Of a stretch of 64,000 bases of DNA, positions 11,798 through 33,259 are shown one piece after another. Within the stretch, counting starts at the first letter, position 1. Each line of letters starts with the position of its first letter. The stretch spans positions 3,318,001 to 3,382,000 of the forward strand of contig NZ_OX365700.1 in assembly GCF_947241125.1 (NCBI RefSeq), in the 5' to 3' direction. A model generated the notes under the pieces. That model was given only the letters and a program-made list of their open reading frames with translations. It was not told the DNA's origin and ran no database searches. The DNA is from Nitrospira tepida. Its GTDB lineage: Bacteria; Nitrospirota; Nitrospiria; Nitrospirales; Nitrospiraceae. The position numbers were made by a program, and so were the translations under genes.

Positions 11798-12178
11798 GTG
11801 TGGCCTCGATTGGTCAATGTACTGGTCGGCGGGTGGTTGATGGCCGCCCCAAGTCTCCTGGGCTACGGCGGTCCGGCGGGAACAAATGATCACGTCATCG
11901 GCCCCCTCATTCTGACTTGTGCGACGATCGCCATGTCGGAATCCGTGAGATCAGTCCGGTGGATCACGTTGACGTTGGGGGTCTGGCTCATGCTGTCGCC
12001 GTTGGTCTTCGACTATTCGAGCCGGCAGACTCTCCATAGTTTCTCGATCGGCCTGCTGGTCGTGCTCATGGCCAGAATTCCGGGGGCCTTGAAAGAGCGA
12101 TTCGGCGACGGATGGACAGGGATCTGGAGGAGACGCGGTCAATCGGAATCGAAGAGAGAAGAGAAGTCCTACGCCTAG
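11798..12178 (+). CDS. SPW-repeat-like membrane protein
   Basis: A 126-aa protein with four predicted helices arranged as two similar halves (VNVLVGGWLMAAPSLLGY and ITLTLGVWLMLSPLVFDY), the pattern of the SPW-repeat family of small membrane proteins of unknown role. The start is a GTG at 11798 preceded by a GGAAGAAGG stretch. It follows the VKOR-like gene closely and is probably in the same transcript. Confidence 0.78.
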   Translation: MWPRLVNVLVGGWLMAAPSLLGYGGPAGTNDHVIGPLILTCATIAMSESVRSVRWITLTLGVWLMLSPLVFDYSSRQTLHSFSIGLLVVLMARIPGALKERFGDGWTGIWRRRGQSESKREEKSYA

Positions 12179-12276
12179 CGCGCATGATTCATGAACGCTT
12201 CGACTGCAACCACCGACATGCCGTTGTCGTCACGAACCGTCATGAATCAGGCTACTGGAGAAAGAATGGTGATGGC

Positions 12277-12480
12277 ATGATGACCCTGCTGGCTGCCGGG
12301 GCGTTCGGGCTGTTGATCCTGACAGCCCTCTATGCATTCGGTTTCTTTGCGACTCCCTATTCGAATGCATTCCGGTTCGCATTCTATCTGATCATGCTCG
12401 TGTTCGCCGTCATGATCGTCTACGCCCTGGGAGATCATCCGTTCGAAGGTTACGATCCCACGCCAGATGCGTCGCGATGA
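12277..12480 (+). CDS. Small two-helix membrane protein, hypothetical
   Basis: A 67-aa ORF with two hydrophobic segments (LLAAGAFGLLILTALYAFGF and FAFYLIMLVFAVMIVYALG) and a short polar tail. A longer reading begins at 12112 inside the SPW gene, but its extra part has no membrane or domain features, so I place the start at the ATG pair 12277/12280. Ribosome site is weak. It sits between the SPW and SDR genes in the same direction. No family recognised. Confidence 0.5.
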   Translation: MMTLLAAGAFGLLILTALYAFGFFATPYSNAFRFAFYLIMLVFAVMIVYALGDHPFEGYDPTPDASR

Positions 12481-12526
12481 GAAGACAGACTATTGGAATT
12501 ATCACTAAAGGCCGAAGGACCGGGAC

Positions 12527-13588
12527 ATGGACAACGATACCCAGAAGCACACAGGCCCACCGGTCGTGGTCGTGACGGGGGCCTCCGCCGGAGTCGGCCG
12601 GGCGATCGTGCGGCGCTTCGCCCGGGAGGGCGCCCTCATCGGATTGCTGGCCCGGGGAGTAGACGGATTGACGGCGGCGCGGCAGGAGGTGGAGCAAGCC
12701 GGCGGGAAGGCGCTGGTCCTGCCCACCGACGTCGCCGACGCGGAACAGGTTGAACAGGCCACGGCCAAGGTGGAGCAACAGTTGGGTCCGATCGATATTT
12801 GGATCAACAATGCGATGGTATCGGTGCTCTCTCCGGCCATGGACATGACGCCGGAGGAATATCGGCGAGTAACGGAGGTGACCTACCTCGGCTACGTCCA
12901 CGGCACCCTGGCGGCCCTGCGTCGGATGCTTCCGCGGGATCGCGGGGTGATCATCCAAATCGGATCCGCCCTGGCCTATCGGTCGATTCCCTTGCAATCC
13001 GCCTATTGCGGCGCAAAACATGCCGTGCAAGGATTTACGGAATCACTTCGTTCCGAACTGATTCACGACGGCAGCCGTGTCAGCCTTTCGACCGTCCATT
13101 TGCCGGCGGTCAATACCCCGCAATTTTCCTGGATCCGATCCCGGATGCCTCGGCATCCCCAACCGGTCCCGCCGATTTATCAACCCGAAGTGATTGCCGA
13201 TGCCGTTCATTGGGTCGCGTACCACCCGCGACGCGAGTTTTGGATCGGATTCCCGACCGTCAAGGCCATCGTCGGCGATAAGTTCATTCCCGGACTCCTG
13301 GACCATTACCTGGCGCATGTCGGATACGATTCACAACAGACCGGCGACCCCATTGACCCTGATCGTCCGGACAATCTCCACTCCCCGCTGCCCGGCGACT
13401 ACGGCGCCCATGGTCTCTTCGACGGGGGAGCCCGCACCTCAAGCCTGCAAGTGTGGGCGAACCAGCACCGCGGCCCGCTCCTCTTCCTAGCCGCGGCGAT
13501 GGCCGGCCTCTGGCTCATGCGAACCCGCCGAGCTGCCGACCGCCAGCCCCGCCGGAACCGTGCGATCCACGCACCGGCCTCCAGATAG
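12527..13588 (+). CDS. Short-chain dehydrogenase/reductase with C-terminal membrane segment
   Basis: A 353-aa classical SDR. The Rossmann nucleotide motif is TGASAGVG (residues ~17-24), followed by NNA near residue 89 and the catalytic YxxxK as YCGAK (~residue 161) with the Ser in QIGSAL. SDRs of this length reduce or oxidise carbonyl/hydroxyl groups with NAD(P)H; the substrate is not evident. Residues ~315-335 form a hydrophobic segment (GPLLFLAAAMAGLWLM) followed by a basic tail, suggesting membrane attachment. cydA begins 12 nt after its stop, so it is likely co-transcribed with the bd oxidase. Confidence 0.9.
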   Translation: MDNDTQKHTGPPVVVVTGASAGVGRAIVRRFAREGALIGLLARGVDGLTAARQEVEQAGGKALVLPTDVADAEQVEQATAKVEQQLGPIDIWINNAMVSVLSPAMDMTPEEYRRVTEVTYLGYVHGTLAALRRMLPRDRGVIIQIGSALAYRSIPLQSAYCGAKHAVQGFTESLRSELIHDGSRVSLSTVHLPAVNTPQFSWIRSRMPRHPQPVPPIYQPEVIADAVHWVAYHPRREFWIGFPTVKAIVGDKFIPGLLDHYLAHVGYDSQQTGDPIDPDRPDNLHSPLPGDYGAHGLFDGGARTSSLQVWANQHRGPLLFLAAAMAGLWLMRTRRAADRQPRRNRAIHAPASR

Positions 13589-29126: not shown

Positions 29127-30224
29127 TTACGGAATGTCCTGAGCAAGACGGAAGCCCGCATCGATGTTCACGAGATGGCGGTCGCCCTTACCCCGATTCG
29201 AGACACGCAAGTCCCAGGGACCGTAGCTCCAGGAGCCGCCCCGTACCACGCGCCTGTCGCAATTCCCATCGTTCGCTTCTAACCAGGCCGACCCATCCCT
29301 CGGTGCCCCTCTGTAATCGTCGTGCACACAATCTTTGACCCACTCCCACACGTTCCCGCTCATGTCATACAGTCCAAGTCCATTGGGCTTCTTACTGCCA
29401 ACTTCCTCTGTGCGATTTGCTTTGCGGTACACAGCATAGTCCTTCAACTGGCGCTCATCGGATGTGCCTGCCCAAATTTCATCTTTTCCTCCACTTCGCG
29501 CCGCGTATTCCCATTCGGATTCCGTCGGCAACCGATAGCGCTTGCCAGTCGCTTCGGATAACCATTGAGCATAGGCTTGCGCATCTTCCCAAGATACGTT
29601 GATGACCGGACGAGACCTACGTCCCCAATCCATATCACTGGGCAACGTCCGACCCGTGGCTAAGGCGAACCGGTCATATTCGGCAAAGGTAACTTCATAC
29701 TTGCCCAAGGCAAACGGTTTGAGCGTAACCTCCTGCACGGGTTGCTCGTTTGACCCTCCTGTACCGTATAAGTCACCTCGCCGAAAGACGCCACCTGGCA
29801 CAATTACCATCTCTGGCTCGGTTTGGATGCTGACAAAGAAGGATTGAACTTTCAGGATGGCCTGATCGACGTTATACTTCTTCTCCCAGAGCCAGGTAGC
29901 TATCCAGAGCCCCACGAGGAGGATCAGCAGCGCCAGGCTGAAATACCTTTGTCGTCGCCTCGCTCGCTCGGCCACTTGCCGCGCATCCTCTGCTGCCTTC
30001 TGCGCTTGTTCGGCCGCGGCGGCTCGCGCGCGTTCGGCTTCTTCACGTTTGGCCGCTTCCTCAGCGAGGCGCCGCCTGTGCCAGCTCGTGCTCGGCCCGT
30101 TGCCGCTCTGCCCGCGCCGCCCGCTCACGAGCCTCGGCACTCTGCCTGATGTACTCTTTTTCCTCATCCGTGAGAATGTCCGCTTTCTGAGAGAGCCAGC
30201 GTTGCGCCTCCACCAGCAACGCAC
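29127..30224 (-). CDS. FGE-sulfatase (SUMF1/EgtB/PvdO) domain fragment with TM helix
   Basis: Last frame of the broken gene. Meaningful sequence begins near 30110 with a charged coiled coil (RLAEEAAKREEAERARAAAA), then a TM helix (YFSLALLILLVGLWIATWLW) and the formylglycine-generating-enzyme fold: MVIVPGGVFRRGD, RLPTESEWEYAARSGG, GNVWEWVKDC, RRVVRGGSW and the terminal AGFRLAQD. The first ~35 codons of the open frame are out-of-frame translation. In STAND proteins such domains can serve as ligand sensors; C-type-lectin-like fold. Confidence 0.75.
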   Translation of the reverse strand: MRCWWRRNAGSLRKRTFSRMRKKSTSGRVPRLVSGRRGQSGNGPSTSWHRRRLAEEAAKREEAERARAAAAEQAQKAAEDARQVAERARRRQRYFSLALLILLVGLWIATWLWEKKYNVDQAILKVQSFFVSIQTEPEMVIVPGGVFRRGDLYGTGGSNEQPVQEVTLKPFALGKYEVTFAEYDRFALATGRTLPSDMDWGRRSRPVINVSWEDAQAYAQWLSEATGKRYRLPTESEWEYAARSGGKDEIWAGTSDERQLKDYAVYRKANRTEEVGSKKPNGLGLYDMSGNVWEWVKDCVHDDYRGAPRDGSAWLEANDGNCDRRVVRGGSWSYGPWDLRVSNRGKGDRHLVNIDAGFRLAQDIP

Positions 30225-31833
30225 CTCGGAGCAGGGCGCCGTCGTCTTGTGTATTTTGCTGCCATTCGTTCACGCGCCCTCTCAACCGTTCCCGCCACAG
30301 CAGAAACTCACGATCCTCATTCAGCCATCCTTGCAACCGGTGCCACTGGCGGATCAGCGCTTCGTGACTGACTTCGACGGTCTCTTCTCCGGCCACCGCG
30401 CGATTCGTGACGAGCAGTCGCTCGTCCGCGAGTTTTTTGACGACATCCATGGCGGCCGAGCCGATTTCTGAGAGCGCCGCTCTGCGGCGGGTATCGTCAC
30501 CGGTCTCGCCCGCTCGGACCACGTGAAGGAAGACGCGTTTGACCGCTTCTTGTTCCGGGGGCGTGAGCTTGGCAAAGACCGCTTCGGCCTTTTTCGCCAC
30601 GGCGCCTTGCAATCCGCCCATGGCTTCATAGGCCTGGTGCGACAGCTCCGGCCCTTGGCGGTCCTCCCACAAGCGTTTGAGCACGAATTCGAGCAGGGGC
30701 AGATGGCCCGGCTCATCACCAACGTCGTCCAGGATCCGCGTCACAAAACCGGCGGCAAAGGACAGTTCGACGCGTCGGGCCGGGGACGTGATGGCCTGCT
30801 CCAATTCGGCTCGCGTCATCGGTCCCACATTGACCTGCGCGCCCTGCAGTCGGTCGGAGAGCGGGCGATAGGAGAGCGCCTTTCCGACAAAGTCCCCGCG
30901 GATTGTGAGAATCGCGGTCCATGAGCCTCTCTCGCTGGCATCGAGTATTTCATCGATGAACCGGCGGCGTTGGTGATCATCCTTCGCGACCGTATAGAGT
31001 TCCTCGGCTTGATCGATGACGAGCAACAACCGATTCGTTCCCGATTGTTTTTCCAAAATGCGCAGGCCGACGTCGTGCAGGCTGACTGCTTTCTTCGCGA
31101 AGGCGTCCGCGAGCTTGTTGATCTTCAACAAGCGATCTGTTTCATCCATCGTTTCCGGCTCAAGGAGCGGCGATACCGCCCGCGCAAGGGCCTTCAGCGG
31201 TTCATCGCCAGGAAACAGTGTCGCGACTTCCCAGGTCGTGTCTTTCTCCTGCCGTAGCTGCGGGACCAAGCCGGCTCTCACGACCGACGACTTGCCGGAG
31301 CCCGATGCCCCGACTACGGCGATGAATCGATGCTGACGGATGGCCTCATAAAGATCCCGGATTGCGGCGTTCCGCCCAAAAAAGAACGGCGCATCCTCTT
31401 CCCGAAAGTAGAGCAGGCCGCGGTAAGGGCAGAGGGTCGCACGGGTGACTCTGATGCGTTCGGCAAGGTCCGGCCCAGGCGCTTCACCTCGGATAGCTCC
31501 GGCAAGCAGCGAAAGCAGAAGCGGATCATCCGTTCCCTGACGCAAATCGACCCAGGTATTCTGGCCAAGGAAGCCCAGTACCGGATCCGAGCCCGGCAGC
31601 AACACGGGCATGACAGGAAAGTCCGCTTTGCGCCCCTGCCGATCCAGCGCAAAGTTTGATTCCCGCTGCTGCCATGGCCCCATCTCACCGGGACCAATGC
31701 ACACGGCGACCGCACGGCACGAAGCCAGTGTCTGTTCCAGCGCCTGCGGCCACGGTCGACCGGGCACGAGATACCAGCGATCGAGGAATGGCTTGAGGTT
31801 CCTGATCGCGGAGTGATCGCGCGATGCGCTCAA
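30061..31833 (-). CDS. TIR/nSTAND NTPase fragment (middle frame of the broken gene)
   Basis: Longest single frame of the broken gene, up to 590 codons. It holds the second half of a TIR-like domain (AVCIGPGEMGPWQQRESNFA), then the linker CPYRGLLYFREEDAPFFFGR that opens nSTAND NTPases, Walker A GASGSGKSS, Walker B-like LLLVIDQAEELYT, the sensor-like TILTIRGDFVG, a winged-helix-like region and a coiled coil that stops abruptly at AEHELAQAAPR. As annotated alone it would lack half of its TIR domain and its effector/sensor C-terminus. Confidence 0.75.
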   Translation of the reverse strand: MSASRDHSAIRNLKPFLDRWYLVPGRPWPQALEQTLASCRAVAVCIGPGEMGPWQQRESNFALDRQGRKADFPVMPVLLPGSDPVLGFLGQNTWVDLRQGTDDPLLLSLLAGAIRGEAPGPDLAERIRVTRATLCPYRGLLYFREEDAPFFFGRNAAIRDLYEAIRQHRFIAVVGASGSGKSSVVRAGLVPQLRQEKDTTWEVATLFPGDEPLKALARAVSPLLEPETMDETDRLLKINKLADAFAKKAVSLHDVGLRILEKQSGTNRLLLVIDQAEELYTVAKDDHQRRRFIDEILDASERGSWTAILTIRGDFVGKALSYRPLSDRLQGAQVNVGPMTRAELEQAITSPARRVELSFAAGFVTRILDDVGDEPGHLPLLEFVLKRLWEDRQGPELSHQAYEAMGGLQGAVAKKAEAVFAKLTPPEQEAVKRVFLHVVRAGETGDDTRRRAALSEIGSAAMDVVKKLADERLLVTNRAVAGEETVEVSHEALIRQWHRLQGWLNEDREFLLWRERLRGRVNEWQQNTQDDGALLRGALLVEAQRWLSQKADILTDEEKEYIRQSAEARERAARAERQRAEHELAQAAPR

Positions 31834-32074
31834 CTGGCTCCCGATCGCGCCAGTGGTAACTCAGGAACACATCGAAGTGATCAGGAGACATTGGTCTCTC
31901 ACAACTTGAACGACTGAATGTGGTCACCAAGTCACTCCGCAGACAGTACCTACGGAGCATCGCCCGAATGGCGTGGATTGTACGCTTTCAGCAGATTAAG
32001 GCAAGGTGGCTGGAATGATGAAGCCCCAGAAGTGAGCCAAAAAATGGTCCGCTTTTCGACTGAAATGGATCAGG

Positions 32075-32443
32075 CTAGCGCAGCGAATTCAGATAGGCGA
32101 TGAGGTCGGAGATTTCGCGGTCGGAGAGGTGGCGCGTGCCGGTCATGGTCGAACCGCCGATGCCGTCCTTGATCGCGCGGTAGAGTTCCAGGTCGGTTCT
32201 GATCCGGAGTGCGAACCAATCACGCAGGTTCGGCGGCACGCGGCGCGGAGAAGGTCCGGCAAAGGGCGTGATGATGGGCGGGATATAGCCCGGCGCGACA
32301 CCGAACAATATCTCTTGCCTCACATCCGTAAACATGTCGGCATCCCGACCGTGGCAGGTGTTGCAGGCCCCCTTGCCGTTGAACAGGGCCCGCCCTTCGG
32401 CGACCGGATCTCTGGACAAGGGAATCATTGGCAGCGCCAGCAC
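32075..32443 (-). CDS. Class I c-type cytochrome domain lacking its own signal peptide
   Basis: Up to 122 residues with one haem site CNTCH, the downstream Met ligand region likely TMTGTRHLSDREISDLIAYL, and the usual N-terminal helix AEGRALFNGKGA. As it stands the ORF starts MLALPMIPLSRDPVAEG (GTG) with no export signal, yet a c-type haem needs periplasmic maturation. The frame is open on its 5' side through a Pro/Glu/Ser linker to a TAG at 32549-32551, the stop codon of the secreted protein 5' of it in the same frame. It is probably the detached C-terminus of that protein. Confidence 0.7.
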   Translation of the reverse strand: MLALPMIPLSRDPVAEGRALFNGKGACNTCHGRDADMFTDVRQEILFGVAPGYIPPIITPFAGPSPRRVPPNLRDWFALRIRTDLELYRAIKDGIGGSTMTGTRHLSDREISDLIAYLNSLR

Positions 32444-32548
32444 CTGCTGGACCGGTTCAGGCTGCGGGGATTCGGGCTGTGACGATTCTGCTGCTCTTGG
32501 CTCACTCGACGGCTTAATCGATTCTGTCGACTTCGGCGGTTCGACAAG

Positions 32549-33259
32549 CTAGGCCGTTCCGGCTGCTTCGGTCGGCTCGGATCGCCGAGGCCGCTGCTCG
32601 GCATTGGGCTTGCCGGTGACGGTCCAACTGATCAAGGTTTCATCCGGGCTGAACGTGATCGTCAATCCCGTGTCCGAATAGGTCCAGATCTCCTCCTGCC
32701 CCCGTTTCTTGATCGTCTTGGGCTTGCCGAATCGCTGCGCGATCTCATCGCGGCTCATCCCGGCGTACGGCGACAGGTCTTGGATTGGAGGGGATGGAGG
32801 CGGCGGTGTAATCGGTGCAGTTTCCGACGGTTTGGACTCTTCCTGTTCCGAGGTTGGCGCCTTGCGCGACCGCTCCGGAATCGTCGCCCGTTTCGGCAGG
32901 GCTGCGACCTTCGTTTGATTGACGCGTAGCAACCGCCAGGCCGAAGTGGTGCCTTTCGGACAGCCGGGCGCATCCGGCTCTTCATAGACCATGGCGGTCT
33001 CGATCAACAGGCGGGAGGTGTCTCGCCCCTGCGCATAGGCGTTCAATTCTTTCATGCCCGCGTCGAACGCCCGCGACCGCGCCTCTTCGGCCGTTCGCGC
33101 GCAGGAAGCCACGCCGACAAAGTACACCTCATCCCCAAACCGGAACATCGCCTGTTCCGTCCAAAACGGCCGGAGAAGAGAGCTGTCGGCCCGGGCAATT
33201 TCAGGCGCGATCTGGGGCAGGCTAAGCAGGAGAATGATGGCAAAGACAGCAGCCGGCAT
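32549..33259 (-). CDS. Secreted protein with BamE/OmlA-like module, ending at an in-frame TAG
   Basis: A 236-aa precursor: signal peptide (AVFAIILLLSLPQIAPEIARA), a domain with VYFVGVASCARTAEEARSRA (similar to LPP20-like envelope modules), a Pro-rich linker, and a BamE/SmpA/OmlA-like repeat (YAGMSRDEIAQRFGKPKTI, IWTYSDTGLTITFSPDETL). It stops at TAG 32551-32549. The same frame continues for 35 sense codons of Pro/Glu/Ser linker straight into a c-type cytochrome domain (to 32075), so a 394-residue protein interrupted by one amber codon is likely. Confidence 0.8.
   Translation of the reverse strand: MPAAVFAIILLLSLPQIAPEIARADSSLLRPFWTEQAMFRFGDEVYFVGVASCARTAEEARSRAFDAGMKELNAYAQGRDTSRLLIETAMVYEEPDAPGCPKGTTSAWRLLRVNQTKVAALPKRATIPERSRKAPTSEQEESKPSETAPITPPPPSPPIQDLSPYAGMSRDEIAQRFGKPKTIKKRGQEEIWTYSDTGLTITFSPDETLISWTVTGKPNAEQRPRRSEPTEAAGTA

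Follow-up and report, generated by a model that had tools for sequence, protein, structure and literature searches.

Attachment of haem to c-type cytochromes requires export (cytochrome c maturation). A stop codon within the gene of such a protein can separate the export signal from the haem domain, as is the case at the locus described here. For in-frame stops in bacterial genes at large, Belinky et al. 2021 (PMC7918605) describe many with a dN/dS that stays below 1 and argue for frequent readthrough. TAG reporters in E. coli gave a mean readthrough of about 0.01-0.8%, which depended on temperature (PMC11126739). Our locus lies in a stretch of 64,000 nucleotides from the nitrite-oxidising bacterium Nitrospira tepida (hereafter the window). 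It resembles the premature stops treated in Belinky et al. 2021 in that a single nonsense codon is followed by a downstream part with a dN/dS well below 1, but differs from them in that the stop occurs in one genome only and is not conserved across species.

Layout of the interrupted frame

The frame runs on the minus strand of the window from position 33259 to 32075 and comprises 395 codons including the final stop. Its translation contains exactly one internal stop, the TAG at 32551-32549, which confirms the description in the earlier note of a lone in-frame amber codon splitting a secreted protein from a c-type cytochrome domain. Reading this TAG as sense yields a frame of 394 codons that joins a head of 236 amino acids to a tail of 157 codons, and the tail stays open up to its terminal stop, also a TAG, at 32077-32075. 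The features are, in window coordinates:

32549..33259, minus strand: head ORF of 236 aa, with a Sec-type signal peptide, a conserved RPFWTEQAMFRFG...SCA...WRLLR module and then a GMSRDEIxxRFGxP...W.Y...GLT module
32549..32551, minus strand: in-frame TAG, without counterpart in both full-length orthologues and located in a variable linker
32444..32548, minus strand: Pro/Glu/Ser-rich linker, 35 codons past the TAG, unconserved in sequence and length
32075..32443, minus strand: cytochrome c domain with the CNTCH haem site and the terminal stop, under strong purifying selection as compared with the relative G020 and without a signal peptide of its own

The head begins with a hydrophobic signal, MPAAVFAIILLLSLPQIAPEIARA (judged by eye), the tail has no signal peptide, and the TAG separates the two. 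As had also been described earlier, the open frame past the TAG starts with the Pro/Glu/Ser-rich linker and continues into the cytochrome. The tail passes the curated cut-offs of both Cytochrome_CBB3 (PF13442, E 1.8e-07) and Cytochrom_C (PF00034, E 2.3e-06), and its CNTCH, a CxxCH haem-binding motif, lies inside the cytochrome c domain. What distinguishes it from these Pfam families is that it is joined to a lineage-restricted head module and lacks its own signal peptide. A PDB search with the tail returned marginal cytochrome matches only.

The sequence at the junction had been thought to resemble a dispersed intergenic repeat, for which we found no support. The 16-mer GCCTAGCTTGTCGAAC occurs at 8 genomic places with up to two mismatches and is thus rarer than its reversed control pattern, which occurs at 18, and we rejected a dispersed repeat as the source of the stop.

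Orthologues and selection on the tail

We searched 175 genomes of the taxonomic family with the tail as query, which gave two strong matches outside this genome, in G020 (72% identity) and in G174 (60%). Both sit in open frames, of 388 codons in G020 (C1:2753876-2755039, minus strand) and 387 codons in G174 (C12, about 12013-13173, minus strand), and the read-through query aligns along nearly the full length of both with an identity of 57% and 52%, respectively, over the aligned stretch. The comparison of orthologues at the amber site, which the earlier note had proposed, shows both frames to be continuous across the interruption, and neither translation contains a stop. The two orthologues share with our frame the same order of an exported head module, a linker and a CxTCH mono-haem cytochrome c domain, and differ from it in that their linkers carry no stop codon and diverge in sequence. 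Furthermore, the G020 orthologue adjoins the same long uvrA-like ORF inside a long stretch of common gene order. A three-way comparison places the TAG in a fast-evolving linker that is conserved neither in sequence nor in length.

Because an uninterrupted frame in each of two other genera runs co-linear with head and tail alike, the open frame of the tail is more than chance. Judging from sequence, the ancestral state is one fused exported protein, since the orthologues are single uninterrupted frames, and the TAG is private to this genome. No orthologue laid out as two genes with a second signal peptide turned up, and the GTDB r220 contigs searched for orthologues contained distant cytochromes only. 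The view that the right unit is a single exported fusion protein thus stands, and the locus is best annotated as a single gene with an interruption, in place of a secreted protein and a neighbouring orphan cytochrome that lacks an export signal. Two separate products, the head ending at the TAG and the cytochrome starting separately at GTG 32443 or ATG 32428, are extremely improbable. These in-frame start codons are the nearest 3' of the TAG and would permit such an arrangement, but no signal peptide comes after either of them, whereas c-type haem attachment needs export. Moreover, the orthologues are single fused frames, and in all three genomes the fused frame includes the linker that precedes the haem domain.

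Compared with G020, the tail shows a pN of 0.085, a dN of about 0.09 and a dS of about 1.9; the dN of the head is about 0.39. Residues of the tail unique to this genome number 4 in the three-way comparison, and 6 are unique to G020. On these alignments, the tail is not decaying. If the branch carries about one synonymous change per site, and given about 245 non-synonymous sites, about 12 extra tail changes would be expected had the tail been untranslated for even 5% of the branch. We infer, with dS near saturation, that a tail left untranslated for long would show many more changes. The few tail changes therefore point to a recent stop, to an erroneous one or to a tail that is still being produced.

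Nonsense mutation, base error or readthrough

Nonsense mutation, error and readthrough were the options listed in the earlier note; the list was right, and of its entries a recent nonsense mutation is the one that the evidence favours. We consider it probable that the TAG is an ordinary recent inactivating nonsense mutation in a gene for a fused exported cytochrome, and not a new form of stop decoding. A single ancestral gene would have encoded an exported protein in which a signal peptide and a head module conserved in this bacterial family are joined through a flexible linker to a mono-haem cytochrome c domain at the C-terminus, and a recent substitution in the linker would have created the amber stop. 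The ribosome would terminate at this codon via RF1, so that the cell would make the exported 236-aa head alone, the cytochrome part being unmade or made at a background readthrough level. Within this explanation, we infer both a correct base call and the absence of meaningful readthrough. Counted against it are that the stop is known from one assembled genome, in which an isolated base error would look alike, and that readthrough, too, would leave the tail intact.

If the TAG were a base-calling or consensus error, the gene would be intact in the organism and the stop an artefact of assembly. One wrong base suffices for this, and the gene otherwise looks like an unbroken one, being intact elsewhere and under selection. 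We surveyed 400 kb of this genome against 400 kb of G020 for errors, which covered 208 common genes. The TAG at 32551-32549 was the only real mid-gene in-frame stop among them; two other apparent mid-gene stops were discarded as alignments extending upstream of the likely true start. A single such stop in 208 genes is compatible with a rare error. Indels are expected to dominate among the errors of long-read consensus sequences, but 209 kb of common genes showed no frameshift, where a control with artificial one-base deletions succeeded in 72 of 80 trials (about 90% sensitivity), and there is no homopolymer at the stop site. Judging from the sole mid-gene stop and the absence of frameshifts in this survey, the assembly is of good quality and a general assembly error is unlikely; an isolated wrong base at the TAG itself appears rather unlikely as well.

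Broken genes are found elsewhere in this genome. For Nitrospira tepida, PMC12342949 mentions a truncated nrfA as well as a V/A-type ATPase, and this genome has a broken nrfA and a V/A-type ATPase. The nrfA gene, for the ammonia-forming nitrite reductase, is broken into three pieces in alternating frames, with two changes of frame (L181, G000:C1:1947300-1949300). In the TIR-nSTAND1 gene adjacent to our interrupted frame (window 29127-31960, minus strand), the TIR domain is split over two frames, with profile positions 1-23 in one ORF and 24-113 in the following one; after the TIR-nSTAND1 ORFs comes an FGE-sulfatase domain in a further frame. This segment has no match at the corresponding place in G020 and looks like a decayed, inserted defence-type gene. 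Neither of the two broken genes has a counterpart in G020, and with breakage concentrated in accessory genes, true gene decay fits better than random error.

Functional readthrough would mean that near-cognate tRNAs decode the amber codon at low frequency, yielding mostly head and a little head-cytochrome fusion, and that this is kept by selection. The conserved tail and its open frame agree with this, as do the frequent readthrough of in-frame stops argued in PMC7918605 and the TAG readthrough measured in E. coli (PMC11126739). However, a stop conserved among relatives is not found, as neither G020 nor G174 has one, and therefore there is no conserved device. An amber-suppressor tRNA, proposed earlier as a check, did not turn up either: the 45 tRNA genes found include none with a CUA anticodon, in a list that lacks Ile-GAT and Ala-TGC and so stems from a search that is not wholly complete. 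The RNA around the stop is folded no better than shuffles (z = 0.80), and TAG is a common terminal stop in this genome, ending 50 of the 227 genes that have a homologue in G020 (about 22%). The RF1 gene prfA is present, above cut-off. The tRNA set, RF1, TAG usage and RNA fold thus give no sign of amber suppression, a changed code or a recoding element, and amber reassignment was rejected. We regard functional readthrough as distinctly unlikely. It is very unlikely that the amber codon is kept as a valve, whereby low-level readthrough would provide, in small amounts, a haem-bearing form of an exported protein that otherwise has no haem. As for the two tRNAs absent from the list, they normally lie in rRNA operons, and an rRNA operon was perhaps masked or missed.

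The head module and its partners

The head family is present in 47 of the 175 genomes of the taxonomic family, with no internal stop in any listed match. It is strongly conserved (RPFWTEQAMFRFG...), with 28 invariant columns among 12 members, and its open frames vary in length and have different C-termini. The module seems to exchange its C-terminal partners, and we would describe it as a lineage-restricted exported head module that carries various C-terminal partners, cytochrome c among them. Because the head module commonly occurs without a cytochrome in the taxonomic family, a head-only product, as predicted under a recent nonsense mutation, is plausible. Such a product would look like what many relatives make, which may be a reason why loss of the cytochrome is tolerated.

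The label 'OmlA-like', given to the head in the earlier note, has as its sole basis a sub-threshold match to BamE (PF04355), with an E of 0.09 in 1 of the 12 members. No Pfam family matches the head above cut-off, and none of the members reaches the curated cut-off of PF04355; membership in BamE/OmlA is accordingly not supported. The likeness to this family lies in the short motif pattern of the second half of the head and is a resemblance only. With the head profile as query, PDB yielded no significant match. In L003, L005 and L012 the same head module is followed by long C-terminal regions in which, by eye, a resemblance to a Lon-type (S16) protease domain can be seen.
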